Below, piece by piece: positions 9,519 to 54,769 of a stretch of 64,000 nucleotides of DNA. The translations under genes were made by a program, and so were the position numbers. The stretch covers positions 1 through 64,000 of the forward strand of contig NSIL01000004.1 of the NCBI GenBank assembly GCA_002737365.1, written 5' to 3'. Within the stretch, counting starts at the first letter, position 1; each line of letters begins with the position of its first letter. The notes beneath the pieces were generated by a model. That model searched no databases, was not told the DNA's origin, and was given only the letters and a program-made list of their open reading frames with translations. Source of the stretch: Acidobacterium sp. (GTDB lineage Bacteria > Acidobacteriota > Vicinamibacteria > Vicinamibacterales > UBA2999).

Positions 9519-9524
9519 TATAAT
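9519..9524 (+). promoter_or_regulatory. -10 box (TATAAT) for leaderless mtgA
   Basis: A perfect TATAAT lies six bases before the GTG start of mtgA, so transcription should begin at or next to the start codon. No Shine-Dalgarno or clear -35 box is seen. Confidence 0.6.
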
Positions 9525-9530
9525 CCTTGC

Positions 9531-10283
9531 GTGGCGCGCCCGTGGCGGTCGATCGCGAAGCGAATTCTCAAGACCCTGGTCGCCGTGGCGGCCGTCGGGT
9601 TCGCCTACGTCGCCTATCTCTATCTCTCGCTGCCGGATGTCCGCCGGCTGGCCGGCACCAATCCCACCACCACCGCGTTCATGGAACTGCGGATTCGCGA
9701 GGCCGCGGATGCCGGCCGCAGCAAGTTTCAGATTCGATACCGGTGGGTGCCCTACAGCCAGGTGTCCGCGAACCTGCGCCGGGCCGTGATCGTCACCGAG
9801 GACGCCGCGTTCTACGACCATGACGGCATTGACCTGACCGAACTCAAGGCGTCGTTTGAAAAAAACTGGGAGGAAGGTCAGCTGCTGCGTGGCGGCAGCA
9901 CCATCACCCAGCAACTGGCGAAGAATCTCTACCTGTCGCCGACCCGCAATCCCATGCGCAAGGTGGAGGAACTGATGATCGCGCGCCGCCTGGAGGCTGC
10001 GCTGACCAAACGGCGGATCTTCGAGATTTATCTGAACATGATCGAGTGGGGCGACGGCATCTTCGGCTGCGAGGCTGCCGCGCGCGCGTATTTCGGCAGC
10101 CCGTGTGCGTCACTCAGCGTGGAACAGGCGGCGTTGATGGCTGGCGCCATCATCAACCCTCGCGTGCACAGCCCCGCGAAGCCGACCGGCCGTTTGCTGC
10201 GTCGTCAGCAGATCATCATCCGCAGGATGGGGATCAAGGACGCGCCGTCACCGGCACCGCCTCCCGTAGCTCCGCCTAGCTGA
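9531..10283 (+). CDS. mtgA: Monofunctional biosynthetic peptidoglycan transglycosylase
   Basis: About 250 residues from GTG at 9531. The frame is open upstream to 9462, but that would overlap the protease gene, and the TATAAT at 9519 argues for the inner start. One N-terminal membrane helix (TLVAVAAVGFAYVAYLYLSL) precedes a GT51 domain with motif 1 EDAAFYDHDG (catalytic Glu) and motif 2 RGGSTITQQLAKNLYLSP. Further motifs are KRRIFEIYLNMIEWGDGIFGCEAAARAYF (partly quoted: RIFEIYLNMIEWG) and SVEQAALMAG. There is no transpeptidase domain. It polymerises lipid II into glycan strands at the inner membrane. Its 3' end overlaps the convergent NlpC/P60 gene by 8 bp. Confidence 0.93.
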   Translation: MARPWRSIAKRILKTLVAVAAVGFAYVAYLYLSLPDVRRLAGTNPTTTAFMELRIREAADAGRSKFQIRYRWVPYSQVSANLRRAVIVTEDAAFYDHDGIDLTELKASFEKNWEEGQLLRGGSTITQQLAKNLYLSPTRNPMRKVEELMIARRLEAALTKRRIFEIYLNMIEWGDGIFGCEAAARAYFGSPCASLSVEQAALMAGAIINPRVHSPAKPTGRLLRRQQIIIRRMGIKDAPSPAPPPVAPPS

Positions 10284-10875
10284 CCCGCTTGGCGCCGAGG
10301 TAGCGGCTCGCCCAGTACTGAGCGCCGAGGTTCTCGACCCGCACCACCCCGCGTTCGCTTGGGGCGTGGATGAACTGATCGCCGCCAATCATGATGCCGA
10401 CGTGCGACGCGCCTGGCGCGACGGTGCTGAAGAACACCAGGTCCCCGGGTTCCAGCCGGTCGCGTTTGATCGACTTGCCCACCTGAAACTGTTCGCGCAC
10501 CGCGCGCGGCATGGGCACGCCGTGTTGCTGGTAGACATAGCGGACAAAGCCGCTGCAATCGAAGCCGCTGGCCGGGTCCACGCCGCCATTTCGGTACGGC
10601 GCGCCGCGCAGCGACAGGGCCGTACTCGACAGGGCATAGCCGTCGGTGTTCGCGCCGGCGGGCAGGCCACTGACCGGAGGCGAGCCTCGCCCCGGAGCTG
10701 CGGGCGGGGGAACCACCCCCGGCGGGACGCCGGCCTCGGCCGGAGCCGGGGCCGGCCCGGCCACCGTGCCGCCGCCTGGCATGGGGAAGGGCCGGGGCGT
10801 ATGGACCATACCGCCCGAGCTGGCGCAGCCGGTGACGATGACCGCCAGGACCGTGGCGACGAGAGTGCGAACCAT
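10276..10875 (-). CDS. NlpC/P60 family peptidoglycan endopeptidase, lipoprotein
   Basis: 199 residues. The signal peptide has a lipobox (VIVTGCASS). A proline- and glycine-rich linker covers ~25-85. The NlpC/P60 catalytic domain follows, with the nucleophile Cys in DPASGFDCSGFVRYVYQQHG and the His in APGASHVGIMIGGDQFIHAP. It should cleave peptide stems in the periplasm. It is convergent with mtgA, overlapping by 8 bp, so synthase and hydrolase sit side by side. A TAAGCT box lies 8 nt before the ATG on this strand. Confidence 0.9.
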   Translation of the reverse strand: MVRTLVATVLAVIVTGCASSGGMVHTPRPFPMPGGGTVAGPAPAPAEAGVPPGVVPPPAAPGRGSPPVSGLPAGANTDGYALSSTALSLRGAPYRNGGVDPASGFDCSGFVRYVYQQHGVPMPRAVREQFQVGKSIKRDRLEPGDLVFFSTVAPGASHVGIMIGGDQFIHAPSERGVVRVENLGAQYWASRYLGAKRVS

Positions 10876-10883
10876 CTATCCGC

Positions 10884-10889
10884 AGCTTA
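10884..10889 (-). promoter_or_regulatory. -10-like box (TAAGCT) before the NlpC/P60 gene
   Basis: On the minus strand TAAGCT lies 8 nt before the ATG at 10875. The spacing suggests a leaderless or nearly leaderless transcript. Confidence 0.45.
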
Positions 10890-10946
10890 TCGGCCGGTGT
10901 GTCGAATTGTGTAGTCCCGCGTGATTCGTGGCACAATATCGCGTAA

Positions 10947-11480
10947 ATGGAGCAAACGCTCCTCCTTAACGCGACCTACGAGCCGCTGAAAGTCGTCAAC
11001 TGGCAAAAGGCGGTGACGTTGTGGTGCCAGGGCAAGGTCGAGATCATCGCGCATCACGACCGCGAAGTCCGCGCGGTGTCGTTCGCCCTTAAATTGCCCT
11101 CGGTCATCCGGCTGTTGCGGTACGTCCGCATCAAGAAGCGATTCGACTACGTCCCGTTCTCGCGCGCCAACATCTACGCGCGCGACGAATACACCTGCCA
11201 GTACTGCAAAGACGTGCTCCCGACCCAGGAGCTCACGTTCGATCACGTCGTGCCGGTCTCGCAGGGTGGCCGCAAGGACTGGGAGAACATCGTCACGTGT
11301 TGCGTGACCTGCAACCGGCGCAAGGGTGGGCGCACGCCATCCGAGGCGCGGATGCGTTTGATGCGGCCACCGCGGCGGCCCATGTCGGCACCCGCCATTC
11401 GCATCAGCATCGGACTGCGTAGTGCGCCGGAAAGCTGGCGCGACTACTTGTACTGGAATCTCGAGCTGGACGACGCGTAG
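10947..11480 (+). CDS. HNH endonuclease family protein
   Basis: 177 residues. The HNH/zinc module spans about residues 80-130: CQYC and CCVTCNRRKGG give two zinc knuckles, and LTFDHVVPVSQGG carries the catalytic His, with ENIV supplying the Asn. The N-terminal part (LLLNATYEPLKVVNWQKAV) is typical of the short stand-alone HNH proteins found widely in bacteria. The substrate is unknown; restriction, repair and phage-related roles are all possible. There is no methylase or phage gene beside it. It is transcribed divergently from the NlpC/P60 gene across 71 bp. Confidence 0.88.
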   Translation: MEQTLLLNATYEPLKVVNWQKAVTLWCQGKVEIIAHHDREVRAVSFALKLPSVIRLLRYVRIKKRFDYVPFSRANIYARDEYTCQYCKDVLPTQELTFDHVVPVSQGGRKDWENIVTCCVTCNRRKGGRTPSEARMRLMRPPRRPMSAPAIRISIGLRSAPESWRDYLYWNLELDDA

Positions 11481-11510
11481 ATGCCACGTGAGCGTGAGAG
11501 CGATTAGCCA

Positions 11511-12551
11511 TTGCCAGCCCTGACTAGCCTGGCGCCGGTTCGCTGTCTTGAAGGCGGGCGGCTTTGGCTGCGTGGCGACGGCTTTCCACAGCCCGAGTCG
11601 ACCGCCGACCTTGTCACCATTGGCGGCGTCCCGGCGCGCCTGGCGTTTGCCTCGCCCGACCGACTTGCCGTGATTGTGCCCACCGGCCTCGAGGGTGGCG
11701 CCATGCCCGTCAAGGTCGCGTGGGTGCCCGGCGCGACGTTGTATGCCCAGGTAGGCAGCGTGCTGGCCACCGGCCTCCATCAGGTGGACAATCCGGTCTT
11801 TGGTCCCGACGGCGCGCTCTACGTCACCTACAGTGGTTCGCGCGGCCAGGAAGCGTCGGTGTCGGTGTTTCGCATTCCAGCCAATGGCGGCGCGCGCGCG
11901 CCGTTCGTGCATGGACTCGTTAATCCCACCTCGATGGCCATCGGTCCCGACGGACGGCTCTACGTGTCGAGCCGGTTTGAAGGCCGCGTCTATCGCGTGT
12001 TCGACGATGGCCGCTACGAAGTGAAGGCCTCGGATCTCGGCGTCGCCTGTGGCCTGGCCTTCGATGCCGAAGGTGCCCTCTACGTCGGCGACCGCGGTGG
12101 CACCATCTTCCGCATTCTCCCCAGCGGCCGTACCGAAACGTTTGCGACCGTGCCGTCGAGCGTGGCCGCGTTTCACCTGGCCATGTCGCCCGATGGTTAT
12201 TTGTACGTGTCGGCGCCGACACTCGCGTCGTATGACTCGGTGCGGCGCATCAGTCCCAACGGCGTCGTCGAAACCCTGGATGTTCCGTTCGGCCGGCCCC
12301 AGGGCCTGGCCTTTGATGCCGCGGGTACCCTGCACGTGGTCGAAGCGCTCGCGGGCGCGAGTGGCGTGTTCGCGATTCGCCCGGGCTCACCGCCAGAGTT
12401 GCTGGTGGCCGGCGCGGGTCTGGTGGGAGTCGCCTTTGGTTCTGACGGTCGGATGGCGGTCGCGTCAAACGAATCGATCTTCTCGTTTGCCACGGATGTG
12501 GCGTCCGCCTCCGATGTGGCGTCCGGCTTTAGCCGGACCAATCCCGCATGA
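11511..12551 (+). CDS. IPT-like domain plus NHL/SMP-30-type beta-propeller protein
   Basis: 346 residues with an apparent TTG start; no better start exists in this frame after the previous stop. Residues 1-80 resemble an IPT/TIG fold (GGRLWLRGDGFP, TIGGVPARL). The rest has repeated propeller blades of the type PDGALYVTYSG, PDGRLYVSSR, AEGALYVGDRGG, PDGYLYVS and AAGTLHVVEAL, as in SMP-30/gluconolactonase or NHL proteins. No signal peptide is visible, and function and ligand are unknown. The last ~20 residues are encoded by an 18-bp direct repeat and a palindrome (12495-12538), so the C-terminus has probably been extended by repeat DNA. It overlaps the next gene by 4 bp. Confidence 0.75.
   Translation: MPALTSLAPVRCLEGGRLWLRGDGFPQPESTADLVTIGGVPARLAFASPDRLAVIVPTGLEGGAMPVKVAWVPGATLYAQVGSVLATGLHQVDNPVFGPDGALYVTYSGSRGQEASVSVFRIPANGGARAPFVHGLVNPTSMAIGPDGRLYVSSRFEGRVYRVFDDGRYEVKASDLGVACGLAFDAEGALYVGDRGGTIFRILPSGRTETFATVPSSVAAFHLAMSPDGYLYVSAPTLASYDSVRRISPNGVVETLDVPFGRPQGLAFDAAGTLHVVEALAGASGVFAIRPGSPPELLVAGAGLVGVAFGSDGRMAVASNESIFSFATDVASASDVASGFSRTNPA
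12495..12538. repeat. 18-bp tandem duplication ending in a GTCCGGCT palindrome
   Basis: Two near-identical 18-bp units (12495-12512 and 12513-12530) both begin GATGTGGCGTCCG. The second runs into a palindrome at 12521-12538 with arms GTCCGGCT and AGCCGGAC around TT. All of it is translated as the C-terminus of the propeller protein. Confidence 0.75.
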
Positions 12552-12910
12552 CCGTCCTGCTCGCGCTGCTGGTCATACTGGCCGGCCTCTGCCTCGGTCT
12601 TCGCACCACCTCGGTCATGCTGCCTCTCACCGTCCATCCACTGGATCGCCTGGCGCTGTCGATCATCGCTGGCGCGATCTGGACGGCCGTGGTGTTCGAC
12701 GTGGCCAACCGCTATCGCATTTACGATTTCGGTCTGGGCCTGATGCTGTCGCTGTCACCGGCGGGCGTGTTCGACATCACCAAGTGGTGGTTCCGCTCGC
12801 GCGGTCGCCGAGCGGGTTGGCTGCGTGCCGGAGACAGCCCCGGTTGGCTGGTCACGCTCCGTTGGGCCTTCCTCTCGGGCCTGGCGGTCACGGTGTTTTT
12901 TCTCCCCTGA
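12548..12910 (+). CDS. Small hypothetical membrane protein
   Basis: 120 residues, starting in an ATGA overlap with the propeller gene, so probably co-translated. Hydrophobic segments lie at ~2-20 (VLLALLVILAGLCLGL), ~35-50 (LALSIIAGAIWTAVVF), ~60-75 (FGLGLMLSLSPAGVF) and at the C-terminus (FLSGLAVTVFFLP), separated by a basic loop (KWWFRSRGRRAGW). This suggests three or four membrane helices. I recognise no family. It could be a membrane partner of the preceding propeller protein. Confidence 0.6.
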   Translation: MTVLLALLVILAGLCLGLRTTSVMLPLTVHPLDRLALSIIAGAIWTAVVFDVANRYRIYDFGLGLMLSLSPAGVFDITKWWFRSRGRRAGWLRAGDSPGWLVTLRWAFLSGLAVTVFFLP

Positions 12911-12935
12911 TCCCTGATCCCTGGCACTGTGGCAT
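12908..12935. repeat. Short 7-bp-period repeat upstream of the antitoxin gene
   Basis: Two exact TGATCCC heptamers (12908-12921) are followed by the diverged units TGGCACT and GTGGCAT. The first TGA is the stop codon of the previous gene. The period matches the longer heptamer arrays before uvrA, trmFO and the ABC-F gene. Confidence 0.55.
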
Positions 12936-12947
12936 CTGATGACGTGC

Positions 12948-12953
12948 TATGAT
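12948..12953 (+). promoter_or_regulatory. -10 box (TATGAT) for the leaderless toxin-antitoxin operon
   Basis: TATGAT ends five bases before the antitoxin ATG at 12959, with no Shine-Dalgarno between them. Confidence 0.55.
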
Positions 12954-12958
12954 GACGC

Positions 12959-13198
12959 ATGCGAACCATCGTGGATTTGCCGGCAGAACAAGTCGAGTCC
13001 CTGGATGCCTGGTGCCTGGCAGAAGGCGTGTCCAGGGCCGAGGCCGTGCGCCGCGCCGTCGCCGAACACCTGCGTAAGCACCACGCCAGCGGGGCGAAAC
13101 GCGCCTTCGGGATGTGGAAGGACATGGCCGAAGACGGGTTGGCCTACCAGGAGCGACTGCGGAGTGAATGGGCTGCGCGTGAGCGTGACTTCTCGTGA
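12959..13198 (+). CDS. Ribbon-helix-helix antitoxin of a VapBC-type pair
   Basis: 79 residues. The N-terminus (MRTIVDLPAEQVESLD, then GVSRAEAVRRAVAEHLRK) fits a CopG/RHH fold: a beta strand that enters the DNA groove and two helices. The C-terminal tail (AFGMWKDMAEDGLAYQERLRSEW) would bind and block the toxin. It overlaps the PIN toxin gene by four bases (GTGA), the standard arrangement. It should repress its own promoter, which sits directly before the ATG. Assignment to VapB-like antitoxins rests on the fold and the partner gene. Confidence 0.85.
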   Translation: MRTIVDLPAEQVESLDAWCLAEGVSRAEAVRRAVAEHLRKHHASGAKRAFGMWKDMAEDGLAYQERLRSEWAARERDFS

Positions 13199-13560
13199 AA
13201 GCCCTCTTCGATACCAACATCTTGATCGATTACTTGAAGGGCATCGAGCCTGCCGAAGGCGAGCTTGGTCGCCATCGGCAGCGCCTGATCAGCCGCGTGA
13301 CATGGATAGAGGTCCAAGGAGGTGTCCGCAACGACGAAGAGGCCGATGTGGCTGAGATGTTCCTCCGCGACTTCGAGGTCATTGAGTTGACGCGGGCCAT
13401 TTCCAGAGAGGCAGCCGAGATTCGACGCGTCACTCGTATCCGCCTGCCTGACGCTGTGATCTGGGCGACCGCCCGCCGTGAATCAGCGCTGCTCGTGACC
13501 CGCAACACCAAGGACTTTCCGGCCGGCGAGCCGGGCATTCGCATTCCGTATCAGTTGTAG
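13195..13560 (+). CDS. PIN-domain ribonuclease toxin (VapC family)
   Basis: 121 residues from GTG at 13195. The PIN acidic residues are in place: Asp in LFDTNILIDYL, Glu in VTWIEVQGG, Asp in LPDAVIWATA and Asp in TRNTKDF. They chelate the metal ions of a tRNA/rRNA-cleaving nuclease. The length is standard and the frame is intact, so it looks functional. It lies directly before a heavily decayed ATPase/DUF4143 gene, which makes this stretch look like a graveyard for accessory genes. Confidence 0.9.
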   Translation: MKALFDTNILIDYLKGIEPAEGELGRHRQRLISRVTWIEVQGGVRNDEEADVAEMFLRDFEVIELTRAISREAAEIRRVTRIRLPDAVIWATARRESALLVTRNTKDFPAGEPGIRIPYQL

Positions 13561-13566
13561 CCGGGG

Positions 13567-14163: not shown

Positions 14164-14212
14164 GCAGCTCGGCCCTCATCCCACCCACCTTGGTGAGGTC
14201 GATCTGTTCGCA

Positions 14213-15841
14213 CTATTTCGGACGCCCATCCTGGTTGGCGAGCACCCAGCTTGACTGGTGTACCAGCCGCGCGACCCGTTCCATCTTCTCGTAGTTGATC
14301 TTCTCGGGCCGGTCGTACTGCGTGTGGTAGTCGGGATGCAATCCCGAGTGGAACCACAGCGCCGGCACGCCGTTCTGCAGGAACGGCCACTGGTCGCTGC
14401 GCCGCAGCAGGTTTGAGCTGTTGTTGTCGTAGCGCATCTTCAGCTCGAGCCCGATCCCGACTGCGGATCGGTTGGCGCGCTCGACGGCGGCACTCAACTC
14501 GGGGTGCCGGCTGTAGCCCAAGATGTTGACGGCGTTGCGATTCGACTCCGCCGTCTGGATCTCCAGACCGTTGAAGCGCGGGCCGCCACCGACCTGCACT
14601 TCCTCGTTGCGGCCGATCATGTCCATGTTGAGTACGGCGGCGGTTTGGGCAAGCGGGAACGTCGGGTTCTCGGTATAGGCCCACGCACCCAGCAGCGGAC
14701 CGCGCTCTTCGGATCCCCAGCAGGCAAATAGCACTGACCGGCGCGGCCGCTGGCCTGCTGCGGCCGCCTTCGCGTACGCATCGGCAATCGCCATCAACGC
14801 CACGGTGCCCGACCCATCGTCGTCGGCACCGTTGTAGATCACGGCGCCATCCGCACCTTCGTGATCGTAGTGTGCCGAGACGATCACGACTTCGTTCTTG
14901 AGTTGCGGATCGCTGCCTTCGATCACGCCCAGCACGTTGCGGTCGGCAACGATGTGCCGGCTCACGGCGGTGGTGAGCGCGACCTCGACACCGTCCAGGA
15001 GAATAGCGGTGTAGCCACGCGCGGTTTCCGCCGCCTTCGACAGGTCAAGCAGGGTTTGGCCGGTGCCGCGCACCATGATCTCGGCCAACGCCGGCGAGAT
15101 CTGTCCCACCGGAATTCGGACCCGATCCGCCCAGCTCGCCAGCGTGAAGCGATCGACACGCGGTGCTTGCGGCGGCCAGAACGCGCGCGCCGACGCCTCG
15201 AAGTTGGTGGCGCCCGGATGGTTATGGATGTCGGTGACGAACAACACGCCGACGGCGCCCTTCTCCTGCGCGGCCAGCACCTTCTTGATGGCCACGGCGG
15301 CCTCGGCCGTCACGACGCCGTCGAAGGGGCTCTTGGGATCGCGTTCACCTGGTTCGTGTTCCAGGATCAGGGCGATGCGGCCCTTCACGCGATCGCCGTA
15401 GTCGTCGTAGCCAAGCGCCGGCGCGTGAATACCAAAGCCGGCGTAGACCACTGGTGCCTTGATCGACCCGCTCGCGCTGAACCGCTGCGGGTAGAAATCC
15501 TGTTCGGGCTTCTGGTCCAGCGTCGTGCCACCGGGCAGCGAGACCGCCAGGCTGTTGCGCTCACCCAAGGTGGCAATCATCAACTGCGTCGGCTGCACGA
15601 ACGCGCCGTTTGGTGCGCCCGGCTTCAGGCCCGCGCGCTCGAAACGCGACCGCACGTAGTCGGCGGCGAGCGCGTTTTCCGGGGTGCCGACCAGCCGGCC
15701 CTTGAAGCCGTCGCCGGCCAGGTAGTAGAGGTCGGCCTTCAGTTCGGCGAGGCGAATGGAGTCGTTGAAGGGCGCCGCAGTCTGCGCCGACAACGCCGCC
15801 GCGAAGACCGCCACTAGGATGAGAGAAAGACTCTGCCGCAT
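14213..15841 (-). CDS. Secreted M28-family zinc aminopeptidase with PA domain
   Basis: 542 residues with a signal peptide (LILVAVFAAALSAQTAAP). A protease-associated domain lies in the middle (GAVGVLFVTDIHNHPGA). The M28 catalytic domain shows VIVSAHYDHEG (zinc His), YNGADDDGSGTVALM (bridging Asp), SVLFACWGSEERG (catalytic Glu), NMDMIGRN (Asp) and a late His region (WFHSGLHPDYHTQYDRPEKI, partly: SGLHPDYHTQYD). It should remove N-terminal amino acids from peptides outside the cytoplasm. It is divergent from an amino-acid permease across only 29 bp, so peptide breakdown and uptake may share control. Confidence 0.9.
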   Translation of the reverse strand: MRQSLSLILVAVFAAALSAQTAAPFNDSIRLAELKADLYYLAGDGFKGRLVGTPENALAADYVRSRFERAGLKPGAPNGAFVQPTQLMIATLGERNSLAVSLPGGTTLDQKPEQDFYPQRFSASGSIKAPVVYAGFGIHAPALGYDDYGDRVKGRIALILEHEPGERDPKSPFDGVVTAEAAVAIKKVLAAQEKGAVGVLFVTDIHNHPGATNFEASARAFWPPQAPRVDRFTLASWADRVRIPVGQISPALAEIMVRGTGQTLLDLSKAAETARGYTAILLDGVEVALTTAVSRHIVADRNVLGVIEGSDPQLKNEVVIVSAHYDHEGADGAVIYNGADDDGSGTVALMAIADAYAKAAAAGQRPRRSVLFACWGSEERGPLLGAWAYTENPTFPLAQTAAVLNMDMIGRNEEVQVGGGPRFNGLEIQTAESNRNAVNILGYSRHPELSAAVERANRSAVGIGLELKMRYDNNSSNLLRRSDQWPFLQNGVPALWFHSGLHPDYHTQYDRPEKINYEKMERVARLVHQSSWVLANQDGRPK

Positions 15842-15847
15842 GGCGCC

Positions 15848-15860
15848 ACCATACTAGAAT
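15848..15860. promoter_or_regulatory. Overlapping divergent -10 boxes between the M28 peptidase and permease genes
   Basis: In the 29-bp gap the plus strand has TAGAAT at 15855-15860, 10 nt before the permease ATG. The minus strand has TATGGT (15848-15853), six bases before the peptidase ATG, and TAGTAT (15851-15856). The boxes overlap, so both -35 regions would lie inside the opposite gene. Confidence 0.45.
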
Positions 15861-15870
15861 TCAGGCGTCC

Positions 15871-17355: not shown

Positions 17356-17359
17356 GAAC

Positions 17360-17443: not shown

Positions 17444-17470
17444 CCACGCCGTGGGCCCCGCAGTACCTCA

Positions 17471-21520: not shown

Positions 21521-21526
21521 TATAGT
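21521..21526 (+). promoter_or_regulatory. -10 box (TATAGT) for the leaderless deacylase gene
   Basis: TATAGT ends six bases before the ATG at 21533. No Shine-Dalgarno is present, and the box lies downstream of the lpxC terminator. Confidence 0.6.
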
Positions 21527-21532: not shown

Positions 21533-23122
21533 ATGCGCCGACTCCTTCCGCTCCTGCTGCTGATTCCCGTACTGACGTCCGGCCAGGCGCCGGTCTACGA
21601 CCTGGTGTTGCGCAACGGCCGCATCATCGACGGCACCTCCAGCCCGTGGTACCAGGCCGACCTCGCCATCAAGGGCGACACGATTGTCCGCATCGCGCCG
21701 AGGATCACCGAACCGGCCAGTCGCGTCGTCGATGTCACCGGCCTGGTGGTGGCGCCCGGGTTCATCGACATTCATACCCACGCCCGGCGCGGCATCTTCG
21801 AGGTGCCGACGGCTGACAACTACGTCCGTCAGGGCGTGACGACCCTGATCGAAGGCCCGGACGGCAGTTCGCCGCTGCCGCTGGCGCCGTTTTTCGCCAA
21901 GGTCCAGGCCCTGCGCATCACGCCAAATTTTGCCATGTTCATCGGCCAGGGCACGGTGCGCAGCGAGGTGATGGGCGAGGTCGATCGGCCGGCGACGCGG
22001 GCCGAGCTCGACAAGATGCGGGCGCTCGTCACCCAGGGGATGGAAGAGGGTGCCCTCGGCCTCAGCTCTGGGCTGTTCTACGTGCCCGGCAATTTCACGC
22101 CGACCGAAGAGGTGATCGATCTGGCCAGGATCGCGGGCCGCATGGGCGGCATCTATATCTCGCACATGCGCGACGAAGCCAGGGGCCTCGCCGACAGCGT
22201 GCGCGAGACGATCGCCATCGGCGAGAAGGGCGGCCTGCCGACGCAGATTACGCACCACAAAGTGGTCGGCAAGAAGTACTGGGGTGGTTCGGTGGAAACC
22301 CTGCGGATGGTTGATGAGGCCCGCGCGCGCGGCGTCGACGCCACCATCGACCAGTATCCTTATACCGCCTCGGCGACCAGCATCGGTTCGGCGCTGCTGC
22401 CGGCGTGGGCGCTCGAGGGTGGCCGTGAGTCGACGCTCAAGCGGCTGAAGGACCCAGCCACGCGCGCCAAAATTAAGGCCGAGAGCACGGCGATCATCCG
22501 CGACGAGCGCGGCGGTGGCGACCCCAAGAACGTGTCGGTGTCGGCGTGCCAGTTCGACCCCAAGCTGGCGGGCCAGAACCTGGCGCAGATCACCCAGGGC
22601 CGCGGCCTCGCGGTCACGCTCGAGAACGCGGCCGAGACGACGATGTGGATGGTCGAGCAGGGCGGCTGTGGCGGCATCTTCCACGCCATCGGTGAGGAAG
22701 ATCTGCAGCGCATTCTCGTGCACCCAGCCACCATGATCGGCTCCGACGGTGAGGTGCCGATGTTCGGCCGCGACGTGCCACACCCGCGCAGCTACGGCAC
22801 GTTCGCCCGGGTGCTGGGTCTCTACGTGCGCGACAAGAAGCTGCTGTCGCTCGAAACCGCGGTGCAGAAGATGTCGGCGTTTCCGGCGCAGCGCCTCGGC
22901 TTGAGCGATCGCGGTGTGCTCCGCCAGGGCCTGAAGGCCGACCTCGCGGTGTTCGACGCCGCCACCGTGCGCGATACTGCCACCTTCGAGAAGCCGCACA
23001 GCTACGCCGAAGGCGTCAGTCTTGTTATCGTCAACGGCCAGGTGGCCTTCGAGGGCGGCAAGATGACCGCGGCGCGTCCCGGCCGCGTGCTCTACGGGCC
23101 GTCGCTGCGGACGCGCCCGTGA
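21533..23122 (+). CDS. Secreted N-acyl-D-amino-acid deacylase (amidohydrolase superfamily)
   Basis: 529 residues from ATG at 21533. The frame extends to 21488, but the signal peptide (LLPLLLLIPVLTSGQAP) and the -10 box fix this start. It has the family N-terminus YDLVLRNGRIIDGTSSPWYQ and the metal-binding HTH in FIDIHTHARRG. Later metal ligands are ISHMRDEARG and QITHHKVVG; the C-terminal end has the composite beta-domain (LKADLAVFDAATV). It should free D-amino acids or remove acyl caps from N-acylated amino acids. A pyridoxal-phosphate aminotransferase of the BCAT/D-amino-acid group follows, so the pair may degrade D-amino acids from cell walls. Confidence 0.88.
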   Translation: MRRLLPLLLLIPVLTSGQAPVYDLVLRNGRIIDGTSSPWYQADLAIKGDTIVRIAPRITEPASRVVDVTGLVVAPGFIDIHTHARRGIFEVPTADNYVRQGVTTLIEGPDGSSPLPLAPFFAKVQALRITPNFAMFIGQGTVRSEVMGEVDRPATRAELDKMRALVTQGMEEGALGLSSGLFYVPGNFTPTEEVIDLARIAGRMGGIYISHMRDEARGLADSVRETIAIGEKGGLPTQITHHKVVGKKYWGGSVETLRMVDEARARGVDATIDQYPYTASATSIGSALLPAWALEGGRESTLKRLKDPATRAKIKAESTAIIRDERGGGDPKNVSVSACQFDPKLAGQNLAQITQGRGLAVTLENAAETTMWMVEQGGCGGIFHAIGEEDLQRILVHPATMIGSDGEVPMFGRDVPHPRSYGTFARVLGLYVRDKKLLSLETAVQKMSAFPAQRLGLSDRGVLRQGLKADLAVFDAATVRDTATFEKPHSYAEGVSLVIVNGQVAFEGGKMTAARPGRVLYGPSLRTRP

Positions 23123-23203: not shown

Positions 23204-23209
23204 TAGAGT
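23204..23209 (+). promoter_or_regulatory. -10 box (TAGAGT) for the leaderless aminotransferase gene
   Basis: TAGAGT lies seven bases before the ATG at 23217, with no Shine-Dalgarno. Confidence 0.5.
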
Positions 23210-24669: not shown

Positions 24670-24741
24670 CGCGCACGCGGTATTTCACGACCGTCGTGCC
24701 GTCAGCCGGGATGGTAGGATTTGGGCGTCAGGAGATCGCCT

Positions 24742-30054: not shown

Positions 30055-31140
30055 GTGCGCGAAGGACTGCAATTCGGCGCGCCACAGTTCCTGTGGCTGC
30101 TGGCCGCACCGGCCGTGCTGTTGGTGGCCTGGTGCTGGCGCGTGTGGCGCCGGTGGTCTGACCTGCGGAGCCTGCGCGCGCACCGCACCATTCCGATTCG
30201 CGAACGATTCGGCGTGGCAGGTGACCTGCCGTTCTGGTTGTGCCTGCTGCTGGCATCGGCCGCACTGATCATCGCCACCGCTCGCCCCCAGGGCGTCACC
30301 ACCGTCGTCGGCCGCGCCGGCGTCGACATCGTCGTGCTGCAGGATGGTTCGGCCTCAATGCACGTGACCGACGTCCCGGGCAATCGCTGGCAGCGGGCGA
30401 TGACGTTTCTCCGCCTGCTCGGAGATTCGCTTAGCTGGAACGACGACCGCCTGGCGCTCACGGTCTTCGCGCATATTGCCACGCCGCAGATCCGGTTGAC
30501 GCGCGATCCCAACACCGTGTTCTTTTTTCTCGATCACCTGTTCGTGCGTCCACCGTTTCGCTTGGACGACGACACGACGTGGGACACCAACTTGGAGCAG
30601 GGCATTGCCTGGGGCTTGCGGCTGATCGAGAAGGATCGCGAGATTCACGGCCCCTCGCCCAATGCCAAGTTGTTCGTGATGCTGTCGGACGGCGAGTCCT
30701 GGAGCGGCGAGGTGGCACGCTCAATCGAGCTGGCCGGCCAGGCGCATGTGCCGCTCAATGTCATTGGTGTCGGCACGCTGTCGGGCGGGATGCTGCCGGT
30801 GAGCAGGGACGCTGACGGCGCCGAAGTGCCGTCGCCTGGACGCTCGCGACTTGATCGCCCGTCCCTTCAGCGCATTGCCGCCGCCGGCGGCGGTCAGTAC
30901 TTCGAGCTGGGTCGCGACGTTGATCGCGAAATTGCCAACGCCATCATCGATGCCGGCCGCCGCCAGGCACCGACGACGACTGAAGAAGGGCAGGTGCAGG
31001 AACTGTATTGGCGCTTCCTCGCCGCCGGTGTGGCGCTCGCCGTGTTCGGCACCGTGTTCCTGCGCGAGCGTGCCGAATTGGGGTTGCAGCTGGTCGCCGC
31101 CCTGGCGACCGCCATCGCCCTTTCGTCCGTCCTCTGGTAA
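30055..31140 (+). CDS. VWA-domain membrane protein, MxaL-like
   Basis: 361 residues starting with GTG directly after the MxaK-like stop. Membrane helices lie at ~12-28 (FLWLLAAPAVLLVAWCW) and ~60-78 (FWLCLLLASAALIIATA). The VWA domain has MIDAS DGSAS in VVLQDGSASMHV and the second loop VMLSDGESWSG. A C-terminal helix (FLAAGVALAVFGTVFL) follows. BatB and MxaL share this plan. A TAAACT box (31138-31143) formed partly by its stop codon is a promoter candidate for the next gene. Confidence 0.75.
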   Translation: MREGLQFGAPQFLWLLAAPAVLLVAWCWRVWRRWSDLRSLRAHRTIPIRERFGVAGDLPFWLCLLLASAALIIATARPQGVTTVVGRAGVDIVVLQDGSASMHVTDVPGNRWQRAMTFLRLLGDSLSWNDDRLALTVFAHIATPQIRLTRDPNTVFFFLDHLFVRPPFRLDDDTTWDTNLEQGIAWGLRLIEKDREIHGPSPNAKLFVMLSDGESWSGEVARSIELAGQAHVPLNVIGVGTLSGGMLPVSRDADGAEVPSPGRSRLDRPSLQRIAAAGGGQYFELGRDVDREIANAIIDAGRRQAPTTTEEGQVQELYWRFLAAGVALAVFGTVFLRERAELGLQLVAALATAIALSSVLW

Positions 31141-31164
31141 ACTGCCTGCCGACAGGAGACTTCC

Positions 31165-32400: not shown

Positions 32401-32938
32401 TCGTCAGCGGTAGCCAGGTCTTGGGGTCACCAGCCATGCCGCGTTCAGTGCTGACGATTTCAAGTCGAAGCGGGCTGAGGCGAATCAGGACGACGTCGGT
32501 GCCCTTTGCTCCGTTCGGATAGAACGGCGTCCACTCCGCCTTCCAGTGCCGCGCCTTCTCGGCGGCGTCGGCAATGAGTTCTCCACGCGCGATGATCGTC
32601 ACATAGCTTGAGGTCGCAGCCTCGAAGCAGGACAGCGTCACTCTGGCGTTCCGCCGCACTTCATCAACCTTGCGCGTGAGCGGATTGGTGGCCACCCAAA
32701 TCATAAACCCCTCGTCCGGGCCCAACGGATCCACAATCCGCGCTTGCGGATGGCCATCGGCGGCGATGGTGATGAACGTGCAATAGCGCGCCTTCGCGAT
32801 GACGTCTCGGCTGGCTGCCAGGATCGCACCTCGGGAGGGTTGCGAGGACGGGGCCGCCTGGGCGCCGGCGAGAGCCGGCGCATTTGAGAACACCAGGAGG
32901 CCCAAAGCGACGGCGTGTACCAGCGAGCGACTTGTCAT
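32387..32938 (-). CDS. Exported pyridoxamine 5'-phosphate oxidase-fold (split-barrel) protein
   Basis: 183 residues from ATG at 32938. An upstream in-frame ATG at 33010 would translate the 9-bp repeat array, and a TAGAAT box between the two favours the inner start. A signal-peptide-like N-terminus (AVALGLLVFSNAPALAGAQ) is followed by a split-barrel domain: ARYCTFITIAADGHPQARIV, WVATNPLTRKVDEVRRNARV and YVTIIARGELIAD. Such domains bind FMN, F420 or heme. Export is unusual for cofactor-dependent versions. The substrate is unknown. Confidence 0.78.
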   Translation of the reverse strand: MTSRSLVHAVALGLLVFSNAPALAGAQAAPSSQPSRGAILAASRDVIAKARYCTFITIAADGHPQARIVDPLGPDEGFMIWVATNPLTRKVDEVRRNARVTLSCFEAATSSYVTIIARGELIADAAEKARHWKAEWTPFYPNGAKGTDVVLIRLSPLRLEIVSTERGMAGDPKTWLPLTITFP

Positions 32939-32946: not shown

Positions 32947-32952
32947 ATTCTA
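32947..32952 (-). promoter_or_regulatory. -10 box (TAGAAT) for the split-barrel gene
   Basis: On the minus strand TAGAAT lies eight bases before the ATG at 32938, with no Shine-Dalgarno between. Confidence 0.55.
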
Positions 32953-32966
32953 GTCGGGGATGTGCC

Positions 32967-33011
32967 CCTGGCACCCCTGGCACCGGTAGCACCTTTGGCA
33001 CCTTTGGCACT
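32967..33011. repeat. Five 9-bp tandem repeats in a divergent promoter region
   Basis: Units: CCTGGCACC, CCTGGCACC, GGTAGCACC, TTTGGCACC, TTTGGCACT. The array fills the space between two divergent leaderless-type promoters (32947-32952 and 33023-33028). Closely related GGCACC units occur inside the ABC-F gene at 60385-60468. Confidence 0.8.
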
Positions 33012-33022: not shown

Positions 33023-33028
33023 TATTAT
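33023..33028 (+). promoter_or_regulatory. -10 box (TATTAT) for the CHRD gene
   Basis: TATTAT ends eight bases before the ATG at 33037; no Shine-Dalgarno is seen. Confidence 0.5.
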
Positions 33029-40569: not shown

Positions 40570-40575
40570 TAGAAT
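40570..40575 (+). promoter_or_regulatory. -10 box (TAGAAT) for lysA
   Basis: TAGAAT ends seven bases before the GTG start of lysA at 40583. The intervening CAAGGAA could act as a weak Shine-Dalgarno if transcription started further upstream. Confidence 0.5.
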
Positions 40576-41779: not shown

Positions 41780-41780
41780 C

Positions 41781-43068: not shown

Positions 43069-43497
43069 CTAGTCGAGGTCGGGGAGTTCGTGGCGGACCG
43101 CGCTGCCCCAGAGGCGGTCGAGGGCGTAGAAATCGCGCGCGTGCTTCGAGAAGACATGAACCACGAAATCAAAATAGTCGAGCAGCACCCACTCCGCGCG
43201 CGCGTAGCCTTCCACGAGCGACGGACGTTGTTTCTGCGCCTTGAGCGCTTCTTCCACCGAATCGGCAATGGCCTGCACCTGTCGCGGATTGGCACCCGAG
43301 CAAATCACGAAGTAATCCGTGAACGCGCCCGCCTTCTTCAGGTCGAGCACCACCACGCCGGTAGCCTTCTTGTCCTGCGCCGCCTCGATCACCGCCTGAA
43401 TGGACTTGGGCAGCTTGGGCAACTTGGACGACTTGGGCGCACTCGCCGGAGTCTTCGTGCTGGTTTTGGGTTTCCGCGGACTCGGAGTCTTAGCCAT
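43069..43497 (-). CDS. rsfS: Ribosomal silencing factor RsfS
   Basis: 142 residues from ATG at 43497; an upstream frame to 43608 would run through the palindrome and nadD. It binds ribosomal protein L14 and blocks subunit joining when nutrients are scarce. Family blocks are AVIEAAQDKKATGVVVLDL, TDYFVICSGANPRQVQAIAD, VEGYARAEWVLLDYFDFVVHVF and HARDFYALDRLWG. The first ~35 residues are an extra Lys/Pro/Ser-rich leader, partly encoded by 9-bp tandem repeats (43403-43438). nadD-rsfS is a common gene order. Copies of a 22-bp palindrome flank the gene on both sides. Confidence 0.94.
   Translation of the reverse strand: MAKTPSPRKPKTSTKTPASAPKSSKLPKLPKSIQAVIEAAQDKKATGVVVLDLKKAGAFTDYFVICSGANPRQVQAIADSVEEALKAQKQRPSLVEGYARAEWVLLDYFDFVVHVFSKHARDFYALDRLWGSAVRHELPDLD
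43403..43438. repeat. Four 9-bp tandem repeats inside rsfS
   Basis: On the plus strand the units are GACTTGGGC, AGCTTGGGC, AACTTGGAC, GACTTGGGC. They encode the Lys-Leu-Pro-type repeats (KSSKLPKLPKS) of the extra N-terminal segment of RsfS. The 9-bp period keeps the frame open. Confidence 0.8.
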
Positions 43498-45590: not shown

Positions 45591-45596
45591 GTGCGC

Positions 45597-45914: not shown

Positions 45915-45983
45915 GGTCAACTCTCCGAATCAGGCGGCGGAACTGAATTCCCGCGCCACAGGAACTACAAAGCATACCACAAG

Positions 45984-47115: not shown

Positions 47116-47207
47116 CGATCCTCTCTGCACTATATCGGCCTACCCCGGGGGCGGCAAGTACGGTATCGTCCTGTTCAGGTCAGGCGGGCGTCAGTCGAGG
47201 TTTCTTC

Positions 47208-48029: not shown

Positions 48030-48039
48030 AGATATTTCG

Positions 48040-50751: not shown

Positions 50752-50764
50752 GCCCTCGGCGGGA

Positions 50765-50780
50765 GATGGCTTTAGCCGTC
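50765..50780. repeat. Imperfect GGCTTTAGCC palindrome after topA
   Basis: Arms GATGGCT and AGCCGTC around TT, with one G-T pair. The core GGCTTTAGCC equals that of the palindrome at 12521-12538. It starts 13 bp after the topA stop; the remaining ~200 bp up to the heptamer array hold nothing I recognise. Confidence 0.55.
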
Positions 50781-50980
50781 GCCGTCTTTGGCCTCGAGCG
50801 TCGTCGCCGGGTGCGCCTCAAGGTGGTTCCCGAGCGCCAGCGTCAGTCGCAGCGAGGGTGTCGACCACGCTGAATCTGCGACCTCGAGAACGCTGGCATG
50901 ACGAAGAATCTGCGAGCTTCCAGTAAGATGGCGTCACGATGATCGACGCAAAACGGCCGCAGATGTTCCACTGAAACTGA

Positions 50981-51029
50981 AACTTCCAACTTCAACTGCC
51001 AACTATCAATGTTCAAGTTTCAACTGACA
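50981..51029. repeat. Heptamer array (7 units of 7 bp) ending at the trmFO start codon
   Basis: Read in steps of seven: AACTTCC, AACTTCA, ACTGCCA, ACTATCA, ATGTTCA, AGTTTCA, ACTGACA. The last A is the first base of the trmFO ATG. The array is much richer in A and T than its surroundings and contains no Shine-Dalgarno. Confidence 0.7.
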
Positions 51030-52384
51030 TGATTCATGTAATCGGTGGCGGCCTGGCCGGCTGCGAAGCGGCGTGGCAGGCCGCTGAGGCCGGCAGGGAC
51101 GTCACGATTCACGAGATGCGGCCGGTGAAGCCGACGGCGGTACACCTGACCGACGGGCTGGCTGAATTGGTGTGCAGCAACTCGTTTCGCGCCGACAAGG
51201 TGGATAACGCGGTCGGCCTGATCAAGGAAGAGATGCGGCGGCTGGGGTCGCTCGTGATGCGGGCGGCCGATGCCACGCGGGTGCCGGCCGGCGCCGCGCT
51301 GGCCGTCGATCGCCACGCGTTCTCGAAGGCCATGACCGAGACCGTGCTGGCGCATCCGCGCATCACGGTCGAGCGTGGTGAAGTCGCGAAGGTGCCTGGC
51401 GGCGAGTGGTCGCCGGTCATCATCGCGACCGGGCCGCTGACGTCCGATGCGCTGTCGCAGGACATCCAGGCCATGGTCGGCGAGGAACACCTGGCGTTCT
51501 ACGATGCGATCAGCCCGATCGTGCTGGCCGAATCCATCGACCTGTCGAAGGTCTTCCGCGCGTCACGCTGGGGCCGCAACGTCTGGAGCGCCGTCCCGGG
51601 CGAGGCCCTGGAGACGACCGAAGAAGGCGATTACCTGAACTGCCCGATGACCAAGGCCGAGTACGACGCCTTCTACGCGGCGCTCGTCGCGTCCGAGTCG
51701 GCCACGGTGCATGACTTCGACAACACCAAATTCTTCGAGGGCTGCCTGCCGATTGAAGTGATGGCGCATCGCGGTGAGGGCACCCTCAGATTCGGCCCCA
51801 TGAAACCGGTCGGCCTGAAGGATCCACGTACTGGCCGATTGCCGTATGCCGTGGTGCAGTTACGGCAAGACACGCTCGCCGGCGATCACTACAGCCTGGT
51901 CGGGTTTCAGACCCAGATCAAATGGGGCGACCAATCGCGGCTGCTGAAGATGATTCCCGGCCTGGCAAACGCCGAGTTCGTTCGCTTCGGCATGGTCCAC
52001 CGCAACACCTACATCTGCGGCCCCAAAGTGCTGTTGCCGACGTGGCAAACGCGTCATCGCGCCGACTTGTTCTTTGCCGGCCAAGTCTCCGGTGTCGAAG
52101 GCTACGTCGAGTCCGCCGCCTCGGGACTGGTCGCCGGCCGTAACGCCGCTGCGCTCGCCCGTGGTGAGGCGCCCCAGGCGCCACCGCGCAACACGGCCAT
52201 CGGGTCACTCGCGCATTACGTGTCGCACGCGGATCCCAAGACCTATCAGCCGACCAACATCACCCACGGCATCATGCCGCCGCTGGACGACCCGCCGCGC
52301 GACAAAATGAAAAAGAAGTTAATGATCGCCGAGCGTGCGCTCGCGGCTCTCGATGGGTGGCGCGGAGCAGCCGTTAGTGCGTGA
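51029..52384 (+). CDS. trmFO: tRNA (uracil-54-C5-)-methyltransferase, folate/FAD-dependent
   Basis: 451 residues. It makes ribothymidine at position 54 of tRNA with methylene-tetrahydrofolate and FAD. The N-terminal FAD motif is VIGGGLAGCEAAWQAAEAG, followed by HEMRPVKPTAVHLTDGLAEL (partly: MRPVKPTAVHLTDGLAE) and ELVCSNSFRAD with the conserved Cys. YNL-type blocks EEGDYLNCPMTKAEYDAFY and the C-terminal FAGQVSGVEGYVESAASG follow. There is no Shine-Dalgarno; the ATG directly follows a heptamer array. Its end overlaps the xerC start by 32 bp. Confidence 0.95.
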   Translation: MIHVIGGGLAGCEAAWQAAEAGRDVTIHEMRPVKPTAVHLTDGLAELVCSNSFRADKVDNAVGLIKEEMRRLGSLVMRAADATRVPAGAALAVDRHAFSKAMTETVLAHPRITVERGEVAKVPGGEWSPVIIATGPLTSDALSQDIQAMVGEEHLAFYDAISPIVLAESIDLSKVFRASRWGRNVWSAVPGEALETTEEGDYLNCPMTKAEYDAFYAALVASESATVHDFDNTKFFEGCLPIEVMAHRGEGTLRFGPMKPVGLKDPRTGRLPYAVVQLRQDTLAGDHYSLVGFQTQIKWGDQSRLLKMIPGLANAEFVRFGMVHRNTYICGPKVLLPTWQTRHRADLFFAGQVSGVEGYVESAASGLVAGRNAAALARGEAPQAPPRNTAIGSLAHYVSHADPKTYQPTNITHGIMPPLDDPPRDKMKKKLMIAERALAALDGWRGAAVSA

Positions 52385-53357
52385 ACACCTGAAGGAATTC
52401 CTGGCCTATATCAAGCTCAATCGCCACGTCTCGCCGCATACCGTGCGCGCCTACGACAGTGACATCACGCAGTATCTGGCGTGGGTCGCCGGCGACCAGC
52501 AGCGCAAGATGTCCGAGCTGACCGTCGACGACCTTGACCTGACGTCGGTTCGCGCCCACCTCGCCGAGCTGAACAAGGCAGGGAAAGCGCGCTCGTCGGT
52601 GGCGCGTAAGCTGTCGGCACTCCGGACGTTCGTGAAGTACCTACGGCGCGAGGACCTGATTGCGCACGACCCAACGGCCATGGCGGTGGCGCCCAAGCGC
52701 GACCAGACGATTCCCACCCACCTCTCGGAACCTGAGATGGCGCGGCTGATCGAGATGCCCAGTACCGGCGATCCGCTCGGCCGACGCGACCGCGCCATCC
52801 TCGAGCTGTTCTATGCCTCGGGCCTGCGCCTGAGCGAGCTGGTCGGGATCGATCTCGAGGACCTCAACCTATCGGGCCGCATGGTCAGGGTCATGGGCAA
52901 GGGCGGCAAAGAACGCCTGTTGCCGTTCAACCAGAGCACGGTGTTGGCACTGCGGGCCTGGCTGGCCGACCGGGCCGGCATTCTGGCGGACCGACAAACG
53001 CGGGCGCGGCGGCGCACCGTGGTCGCGCCCCGCAAGACGGTCGCCGGCGGGCGGCAGAAGGCCCCGACCGAGCCCTTGTTCCTGAATGCCCGCGGCGGCC
53101 GGCTGACCGGACGCAGCGTCGACCGCCTGCTGCGACGCTACGTCGCGCAGTGCAGCACGAGGCTGGGTATCAGCCCTCACGCCTTGCGTCACTCGTTCGC
53201 GACGCACCTGTTGCAGCGCGGCGCCGACCTCAGGGCCATCCAGGAGCTGCTCGGCCACTCGCGCCTCAGCACGACCCAGCGCTACACCCATGTCAATGCC
53301 GCGCAGCTGATCGAGGTCTATCGCAAATCGCACCCGCGAGCCGCAAAGAGCGAGTAG
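52353..53357 (+). CDS. xerC: Tyrosine site-specific recombinase XerC/XerD
   Basis: 334 residues from ATG at 52353; GTG at 52377 after GGAG is an alternative start. It resolves chromosome dimers at dif sites. The N-terminal SAM-like domain (LKEFLAYIKLNRHVSPHTV) precedes the catalytic domain with Arg in YASGLRLSELVG, Lys in GKGGKERLLP, His-Arg in SPHALRHSFATH, His in LLGHSRLSTT and Tyr in QRYTHVN. An insertion of ~30 basic residues (TRARRRTVVAPRKTVAGGRQ) lies between the Lys motif and the late catalytic block. Position after trmFO matches codV/xerC order in Firmicutes, so I call it xerC; XerD is not excluded. Confidence 0.9.
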   Translation: MGGAEQPLVREHLKEFLAYIKLNRHVSPHTVRAYDSDITQYLAWVAGDQQRKMSELTVDDLDLTSVRAHLAELNKAGKARSSVARKLSALRTFVKYLRREDLIAHDPTAMAVAPKRDQTIPTHLSEPEMARLIEMPSTGDPLGRRDRAILELFYASGLRLSELVGIDLEDLNLSGRMVRVMGKGGKERLLPFNQSTVLALRAWLADRAGILADRQTRARRRTVVAPRKTVAGGRQKAPTEPLFLNARGGRLTGRSVDRLLRRYVAQCSTRLGISPHALRHSFATHLLQRGADLRAIQELLGHSRLSTTQRYTHVNAAQLIEVYRKSHPRAAKSE

Positions 53358-53360
53358 AAT
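53355..53360 (+). promoter_or_regulatory. -10 box (TAGAAT) overlapping the xerC stop codon
   Basis: The TAG stop of xerC forms the first half of TAGAAT, which ends eight bases before the GTG start at 53369. No Shine-Dalgarno follows. Confidence 0.55.
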
Positions 53361-53368
53361 CTCGCCAG

Positions 53369-54769
53369 GTGCCTGCTTCGAAACTTCTCGTCCGACACCG
53401 ATCGCTTTGCACGGCGGCCGCACTTCTCATCCTCTTTGTCACCGTTCCCGCCTACGGGCAAGAGACCGCGCCGGCGTCAAGGCCACCAGGCGAACCGGTC
53501 GACTTCTTCGGCTTCAAGTTCTCGCAGAGCGAACGCTTCAAGTTTGGCGGCGAACTGGTGGTCGGCTGGTCGCACGATGGCGCCCAGGCGGCACTGGGCT
53601 TCGAAAAGCAGGGCCGCGTCGGCATGGCCATTCTCTCGGTCGCGGGCAAGGTCAGCGATCACGTGCGCTTCTTCGCCTCGGTGAATCCCGTCAGCGAAAC
53701 CAACGCGCGGCCGGCCTGTGGCGAGAAGGACTATTTCTTTCCCAGCGACCCCAACCTCTACGCCGGCATCGGCCCGATCGTGAAGTGCGACGTTGAAGAC
53801 GGCCTGAAGCGCGTCGACACCTACAACACTTTTTCGCTCGACTACATCACGCAGCAGGGCATCCTGCGCGAGGGCTACCTCGACTGGGGCATCTCCGACA
53901 GCGTCTCGCTGCGCGGCGGCCGCTTCATCCTGCCGATCGGCTTCGCGCCGCGCGATGTCGGCGCGGCCACTGCCAAGGACATGACGCGTCTCACGCGACT
54001 CAACGCCGAAGCCAACTTCGGCGCCATGCTCGCGGTCACGGCCCGGCGCGGCGAGCGCGCCATCTTCGATGCCGGCCTGATGGCGGTGCTCGGCGACGGC
54101 AATCGCGAGAAGGACTACGACTGGTTCTACTTCGTCAACACCTCGCTCGACACCAACAGCGCGATCACCGTGGTGGCGTCGGCGCGGATGACGCCGATCA
54201 AGGCCATCGACGTGCGGGCCGCTTTCAAGAAGGGCTACACCGGCTCGAAGGTGGAGCGCCTGCCCAGCTACTGGGCGTCCAAGCGCAACGACGATGCACT
54301 GGTGGTGAGCGTGAAGCTGTCGCCGACGTCGTGGGCGTCGGTGTTTGGCGAGTACGCCAAGTACACGTGGGGGCCGACGCTGACCTCTGGCGAGCTGGTC
54401 GGTTTGCCGGATCTCGCGGCCATCGACAAGGCCGGCTACTTCATGGGCGCGCAGCTCGAGGCGCCGATTACCGGCCAGGTCCGCGCCGGCTTCAGCTTCG
54501 TGCGCGAGGAGCTGTCGCGCGACGACAGCATGATCCAGTACCTCGCCCTGAACCGGTTGTACGGCGTCCAGATGGGCAAGAAGGATCGCGAGCTGGTGGT
54601 CCGCGGCTTCGTCGACGTCAACCGCCTGGTTAACGTCAGCTTCTTCTGGATGGACGTCTCGAACCCGTTCCCCTGGGTCAGCGCCAGCTGGCCGGTCACC
54701 GGCCCGACGGCGTTTACCGGCCGCGAGCCCGACCGCATTGGCGTGACGGTCACCGTCCGCACGCCCTGA
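53369..54769 (+). CDS. Porin-like outer-membrane beta-barrel protein
   Basis: 466 residues from GTG at 53369; the frame extends into xerC, but the signal peptide (LCTAAALLILFVTVPAYGQ) and -10 box fix this start. The mature protein has repeating amphipathic beta strands rich in aromatic ends (FKFGGELVVGWSHDG, HVRFFASVNPVSE, VSLRGGRFILPIGFAPRDVG, ASVFGEYAKYTWGP, GFSFVREELSRDDS, VNVSFFWMDVSNPFPWV). FILPIGFAPRDVG resembles OprP/OprO-type phosphate porins. Pore specificity is unknown. It ends with a beta-strand-like VTVTVRTP, not the usual terminal Phe. Confidence 0.7.
   Translation: MPASKLLVRHRSLCTAAALLILFVTVPAYGQETAPASRPPGEPVDFFGFKFSQSERFKFGGELVVGWSHDGAQAALGFEKQGRVGMAILSVAGKVSDHVRFFASVNPVSETNARPACGEKDYFFPSDPNLYAGIGPIVKCDVEDGLKRVDTYNTFSLDYITQQGILREGYLDWGISDSVSLRGGRFILPIGFAPRDVGAATAKDMTRLTRLNAEANFGAMLAVTARRGERAIFDAGLMAVLGDGNREKDYDWFYFVNTSLDTNSAITVVASARMTPIKAIDVRAAFKKGYTGSKVERLPSYWASKRNDDALVVSVKLSPTSWASVFGEYAKYTWGPTLTSGELVGLPDLAAIDKAGYFMGAQLEAPITGQVRAGFSFVREELSRDDSMIQYLALNRLYGVQMGKKDRELVVRGFVDVNRLVNVSFFWMDVSNPFPWVSASWPVTGPTAFTGREPDRIGVTVTVRTP

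Follow-up and report, generated by a model that had tools for sequence, protein, structure and literature searches.

In the first 64,000 nt of contig NSIL01000004.1 of an uncultivated Acidobacterium species of the order Vicinamibacterales (positions 1-64000 of one contig, hereafter the window), a number of genes are preceded by a TANNNT hexamer that ends only a few nucleotides before the start codon. The sharp positional peak of this hexamer, its motif specificity, its occurrence at genes that can start a transcript, the rarity of Shine-Dalgarno (SD) sequences at these genes and its recurrence at orthologous starts suggest that the hexamers are very probably -10 boxes that give leaderless mRNAs, at approximately 8-10% of the genes. 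Leaderless transcription had been proposed for the window in an earlier reading of the sequence alone (the sequence-only reading), and it is still the best interpretation after these analyses. At such a sigma-70-type -10 box, RNA polymerase would start on or within 1-2 nt of the start codon, and the resulting mRNAs would be leaderless and translated without SD interaction. This mode may serve about one in five of the genes that have a divergent upstream neighbour, and would exist beside ordinary SD genes. We infer the role of the hexamer as a promoter and the exact transcription start, as well as, from the leaderless route in other bacteria, the loading of ribosomes.

The genome is 3.05 Mb in 54 contigs, with 64.8% G+C, and 1.324 Mb of it with 1,178 called genes and 1,138 usable starts was used for genome-wide counting. 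Genes were called with a home-made, simple dicodon model that picks the start by coding potential only and is blind to upstream sequence. The gap is defined as the number of nucleotides between the end of the hexamer and the start codon. Starts closer than 70 or 140 nt to where a stretch begins, read on the strand of the gene, were dropped (40 and 51 of the 1,178 genes), and boxes derived from a stop codon of the upstream gene were excluded from the main count.

A count of TANNNT by distance from start codons had been suggested beforehand as a test of the leaderless proposal, and it revealed a sharp peak at gap 6, where the first T lies 12 nt upstream of the start. At gaps 5, 6, 7, 8 and 9 the hexamer was found 9, 44, 27, 27 and 13 times, respectively. 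With 6.3 expected as background at each position, this gives 120 observed boxes versus 31.5 expected. The excess was present both in the first 524 kb (43 vs. 12.2) and in the later 800 kb (77 vs. 19.2), as well as when the window was left out (116 vs. 29.5). It corresponds to 7.8% of genes with the starts fixed; if any in-frame start within 60 nt is allowed, 187 of 1,127 genes have a box compared with 80.5 at control gaps (excess 9.4%), and among genes with a divergent upstream neighbour the numbers are 98 of 306 versus 38.0 (excess 19.6%).

SD sequences were recorded as any of the 4-mers GGAG, AGGA and GAGG in the 11 nt before the start. The sequence-only reading had noted little or no SD at the box genes, and only 3 of 116 such genes have one, compared with 205 of 1,011 other starts. 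A fairer comparison, since the box and the SD region partly overlap, is with genes that carry TANNN[ACG] at these gaps; 13 of 86 such genes contain an SD 4-mer (P-value = 0.0014 against the box genes), and genes with VANNNT contain it in 36 of 186 cases. On the other hand, SD 4-mers were found at 86 of 457 starts versus 31 in a background window of the same genome, and thus two initiation modes coexist, as had been suggested.

The alternative that survives best is that the boxes are real -10 elements that initiate transcription a few nucleotides ahead of the start codon, or that the true start codon lies downstream, so that the mRNAs carry short leaders. In favour of this are the tail of the distribution at gaps 9-12 (13, 11, 10 and 16 vs. 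6.3), a small rise at gaps 15-16 (13 and 10) and the uncertainty of start choice. However, the mode falls exactly at gap 6, which in the usual sigma-70 promoter is the spacing that places +1 on the start codon, and SD sequences are absent in 113 of the 116 box genes. Short leaders are therefore unlikely, though they deserve more weight than any of the other alternatives discussed below.

Leaderless initiation from -10 boxes was further examined by comparison with shuffled and non-genic starts. Including stop-derived boxes, 128 of 1,127 genes have a box, whereas the maximum reached in 100 dinucleotide shuffles was 47 when 60 nt upstream were shuffled and 54 when 30 nt were. In the first 464 kb, no such peak was observed at nearby out-of-frame starts (n = 1,668) or at internal in-frame starts (n = 8,731).

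Recurrence at orthologous starts was analyzed in 98 ortholog pairs representing 50 genes, taken from syntenic DNA of three genomes of the same genus and one of the same family. Pairs were dropped if they were not the best for their place, had less than 55% identity or 60% coverage, began after residue 40 or lay less than 80 nt from the end of a stretch. The ortholog has a box at gaps 5-9 in 14 of the 19 pairs in which this genome has one, and in 2 of the 79 pairs in which it has none; for TANNN[ACG] at the same gaps, sharing was found in 2 of 14 pairs. Among the eight sites listed below that have an ortholog in the DNA compared, seven have it conserved in one or more relatives, the exception being the gene starting at 15841. 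In two genes the blind caller picked 33091 and 23208 as starts, whereas the box that recurs in relatives points to 33037 and 23217.

The most extensive comparison was available for the amidohydrolase gene at 21533, for which 42 distinct loci, including its own, were collected; loci whose first 300 nt were identical, and those with less than 60 nt upstream, had been dropped. A box is present in all 13 loci with at least about 71% identity, in 14 of the 26 loci with at least 60% identity and in 23 of the 42 overall. The 13 close loci have TATAGT, TATACT or TAGACT 6-8 nt before ATG, and the upstream DNA surrounding the hexamer is unlike among them. Several loci that lack the box show a GAGG-like stretch near the start instead, as read by eye, and some of the more distant loci may be paralogs. 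Close relatives have the box (L031-L034, L084-L087 and others) and distant ones mostly lack it (L021-L027, L071-L081). From sequence, this gene is a possible case of initiation-mode switching, and its orthologs permit a gene-by-gene study of switches between leadered and leaderless expression.

All ten hexamers named by the sequence-only reading were confirmed in the window, each 5-8 nt ahead of an open start codon. They are listed below with their conservation in samples from related genomes (G002, G004 and G008).

9519 to 9524, forward strand: TATAAT, gap 6 to GTG 9531 of a transglycosylase-domain protein (PF00912); gap 6 retained in G004 and G008.
10884 to 10889, reverse strand: TAAGCT, gap 8 to ATG 10875 of an NlpC/P60 protein; retained in G004 (gap 7) and absent in G008.
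12948 to 12953, forward strand: TATGAT, gap 5 to ATG 12959 of a ribbon-helix-helix protein, whose gene is followed by a PIN-domain gene at 13195; gap 5 retained in G004, the sole ortholog found in the relatives' DNA compared (by eye).
15848 to 15853, reverse strand: TATGGT, gap 6 to ATG 15841 of an M28 peptidase; box absent in G004 and G008, a weak member.
21521 to 21526, forward strand: TATAGT, gap 6 to ATG 21533 of an amidohydrolase family protein.
23204 to 23209, forward strand: TAGAGT, gap 7 to ATG 23217 of a class IV aminotransferase; the box lies at gap 6 in G004, and in G008 TAGAGT has a gap of 10, which is beyond the range counted.
32947 to 32952, reverse strand: TAGAAT, gap 8 to ATG 32938 of a pyridoxamine-phosphate-oxidase-like protein.
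33023 to 33028, forward strand: TATTAT, gap 8 to ATG 33037 of a CHRD-domain protein; TATCAT at gap 8 in G002, G004 and G008.
40570 to 40575, forward strand: TAGAAT, gap 7 to GTG 40583 of a PLP-dependent decarboxylase; in G004 and G008 a candidate start lies 42 nt (14 codons) further upstream, with a box there also at gap 7.
53355 to 53360, forward strand: TAGAAT, gap 8 to GTG 53369; its first three letters, TAG, terminate the gene at 52335-53357, an uncertain member.

Pfam matches were found for all of the ten proteins except the one from 53369. No orthologs of the genes at 32938 and 53369 were found in the relatives' DNA compared. Two of the individual sites are less secure than the sequence-only reading had them, 53355 being confounded by the stop codon and 15848 being absent in both same-genus relatives examined.

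Two further sites represent the leadered contrast.

24715 to 24720, forward strand: TAGGAT, 21 nt before ATG 24742 of an M19 dipeptidase, with AGGAGA between; TAGGAT and AGGAGA occur likewise in G002, G004 and G008.
31138 to 31143, forward strand: TAAACT, 21 nt before ATG 31165 of a DUF3500 gene, with AGGAGA between; no ortholog was found in the relatives' DNA compared.

These two genes had been taken as examples of boxes about 21 nt upstream with an SD sequence between. Both are present as described, but a second box class at this distance was sought genome-wide and no positional peak was detected (8 vs. 6.3).

The frequency of such boxes in the window depends on how starts are chosen. An earlier rough estimate of one box per 50 starts is about right for a fixed start (6.3/1,138 × 4 positions = 2.2%), but a gene has several possible starts. 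With free start choice within 60 nt and gaps 5-8, boxes were found at 9 of the 59 called genes of the window, compared with a mean of 3.4 (range 1-6) over eleven control gaps, approximately a 2.7-fold ratio. Eight of the nine are sites listed above, and the remaining one belongs to a start inside the gene at 58815-59891; 12959, which lies outside the called genes, and 53369, whose box takes its TAG from the stop of the upstream gene at 53357, are omitted from this count. The surplus in the window is genuine but smaller than had been thought when ten boxes were regarded as a large excess.

These numbers also bear on the possibility that the boxes arise by chance, combined with free choice among several starts in each gene. 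Chance would supply 3.4 of the 59 window genes and about 31 of the 120 genome-wide boxes, and the site at 15848 is not conserved. However, the genome-wide peak is sharp with starts that were chosen blind, the 128 box genes far exceed the shuffle maxima, and the boxes recur at orthologous starts. Chance is very improbable as an account of the whole and was rejected as such; it stands for perhaps a quarter of the single sites.

A promoter role of the hexamer is also consistent with its sequence and genomic context. Among 13 hexamer patterns counted at gaps 6-8 in 524 kb, a clear peak was observed in TANNNT alone (35 vs. 7.3). Changing the last base gave no peak (TANNNA 7 vs. 5.0, TANNNC 4 vs. 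7.4, TANNNG 9 vs. 6.3), equally AT-rich hexamers had no clear peak (ATNNNT 7 vs. 8.6, TTNNNT 11 vs. 8.1, AANNNT 8 vs. 9.5), and the second-highest ratio was that of TANTNN (10 vs. 5.2). The inner bases, which are ignored by the definition, lean to A at positions 4 and 5 of these boxes (A4 45%, A5 53%; 29% and 33% in other TANNNT boxes), as they do in a -10 box. ATG is the start codon in 78 of 116 box genes versus 609 of 1,178 genes overall, to which imperfect start choice may contribute.

Box genes are genes able to begin a transcription unit. Boxes were found at 63 genes with a divergent neighbour (16.4 expected, n = 306). When the upstream neighbour is on the same strand, they were found at 10 genes more than 100 nt away from it (4.1 expected, n = 135), at 24 genes 26-100 nt away (5.1 expected, n = 217) and at 13 genes 5-25 nt away (1.9 expected, n = 138). 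Genes that overlap the upstream gene or lie less than 5 nt from it have 5 boxes (2.8 expected, n = 295).

AT bias upstream of starts is common in bacteria, and general AT-richness or low structure in this region could raise the frequency of TANNNT without any promoter role. This explanation has even less probability than chance: ATNNNT, TTNNNT, AANNNT and TANNNA show no clear peak and overlapping genes no clear excess, and it was rejected by the comparison of hexamer patterns. The weakest alternative, that TAG/TAA stop codons of close upstream genes mimic the TA of the box, applies to 53355 and to 12 of the 30 TAG/TAA stops located 8-12 nt before the next start, but is hardly credible as a general cause and was rejected, because the excess of 120 versus 31.5 remains after removing every stop-derived box.

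A separate question is whether, in close gene pairs like that at 53355, the TAG or TAA that stops the first gene may also provide the TA of a -10 box from which the second gene is transcribed without a leader. We consider this a tentative idea that is doubtful at present. A T at position 6 follows 12 of the 30 stops mentioned above and 52 of 294 TAG/TAA stops at other distances (one-sided P-value = 0.006, post hoc), a hint that stop codons may in some cases function in a -10 box as well. By subset, the first 524 kb gave 9 of 20 versus 29 of 122 (P-value = 0.05) and the later 800 kb gave 3 of 10 versus 23 of 172 (P-value = 0.16), the latter having the same direction without being a replication. 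Stop-derived boxes at gaps 5-9 number only 12 in the whole 1.324 Mb, mostly in the first 524 kb; the 524 kb set contained 10 from this genome, and the remaining 14 Acidobacteriota samples had a combined total of 3. Besides 53355-53369, a second instance of a stop-derived box in the window is located before 35634. If the idea is true, the same three nucleotides would both terminate translation of the upstream gene and initiate transcription of the downstream one.

The distribution of the peak was also surveyed in other genomes with the same script. The samples are small, with 31-118 genes per genome, compared with 1,127 in the genome under study (G000). An excess at P-value < 0.05, uncorrected, was observed in 9 of 15 Acidobacteriota samples (G000, G004, G002, G013, G026, G082, G118, G107 and G049). 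Samples G004, G008, G002 and G013 were taken only around the region matching the window and thus are not independent of it. As controls, the MP1 plasmid of Deinococcus radiodurans was positive (16/116 vs. 7.0, excess 7.8%), and an Escherichia coli sample was negative (22/120 vs. 19.4). In a recent study, about 30% of open reading frames (ORFs) in Deinococcus-Thermus are given as leaderless (PMC12340547), compared with 7.8% for MP1 here, suggesting that our own percentages may be low or that the plasmid differs from the chromosome.

Several observations weigh against leaderless initiation from -10 boxes. Six of the 15 Acidobacteriota samples have no significant excess; G110, G109, G132 and G060 show none, and G008 and G067 a slight one. 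No enrichment of a -35 hexamer was detected, TTG at spacers of 16-18 nt preceding 6.9% of 116 boxes and 8.6% of 266 control boxes, so that the upstream half of a classical sigma-70 promoter (TTGACA) is not seen. Sharing between orthologs is not restricted to the peak, because 12 of 31 pairs share a box at control gaps of 20-44, with gaps 40-44 accounting for 8 of the 12, and the difference from 14 of 19 has a P-value of only 0.02. In addition, the gene caller is home-made and its start choice imperfect, and with about 31 of the 120 boxes expected by chance, single sites are uncertain.

Additional features were also observed. At 12959-13560, the ribbon-helix-helix protein overlaps the PIN-domain protein in a VapBC-like toxin-antitoxin layout, whose first gene has the box at gap 5. 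Short tandem repeats with units of 8-9 nt are located at 32965-33010, 43404-43438 and 60379-60470, with units such as CCCCTGGCA, ACTTGGGCA, GGTGCCACG and TTGGCACC. GGCACC-type words, which are similar to these units, are found ahead of some box genes in other parts of the genome, and AGCACCTG-type words precede the G004 ortholog of 33037.

The box may also serve as a signal with which gene finders could fix the correct starts in this lineage, 33037 and 23217 being examples.

With regard to known systems, the arrangement is of a known kind that was predicted for the phylum in 2011, and no new mechanism is opened. In the leaderless transcriptomes of Mycobacterium described by Cortes in 2013, transcription reportedly starts at the start codon with the -10 element just upstream. 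Our boxes are alike in the position of this element, and differ in phylum and in that the transcription starts of Mycobacterium were mapped. Among the matches listed in a search of open-licence papers, judged by titles and the openings of abstracts, no transcription-start map for Acidobacteriota was found.

In Deinococcus-Thermus, Zhong et al. (2025; PMC12340547) describe TANNNT directly before the ORF as the promoter of leaderless genes, an arrangement tested by mutation and reporters in which the -35 element is an enhancer and not a need. The present boxes are similar in that TANNNT adjoins the ORF and no -35 element is enriched, and the excess on the MP1 plasmid of D. radiodurans (7.8%) is of similar size to the one here; unlike that tested arrangement (PMC12340547), the one in the present genome is described from sequence.

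The closest similarity is to the TA-like leaderless genes of Zheng et al. (2011; PMC3160421), who report predictions based on a TANNNT signal in three of three Acidobacteria genomes, with a mean of 13.3% (9.7-19.4%) of genes. The statement of the sequence-only reading that it knew of no description for Acidobacteriota was therefore wrong as to predictions. The hexamer is the same, its first T is located about 12 nt before the start in both cases, and the genome is likewise rich in G+C. The share of genes found here, 7.8% with fixed starts or 9.4% with candidate starts, compares with the 9.7-19.4% in that study. Different from what is described there, the present analysis deals with an uncultivated Vicinamibacterales genome and adds tests of orthologs, operon position and SD sequences. 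The range of a known initiation mode is widened, on comparative evidence, to include a soil lineage that is abundant and for the most part uncultivated.

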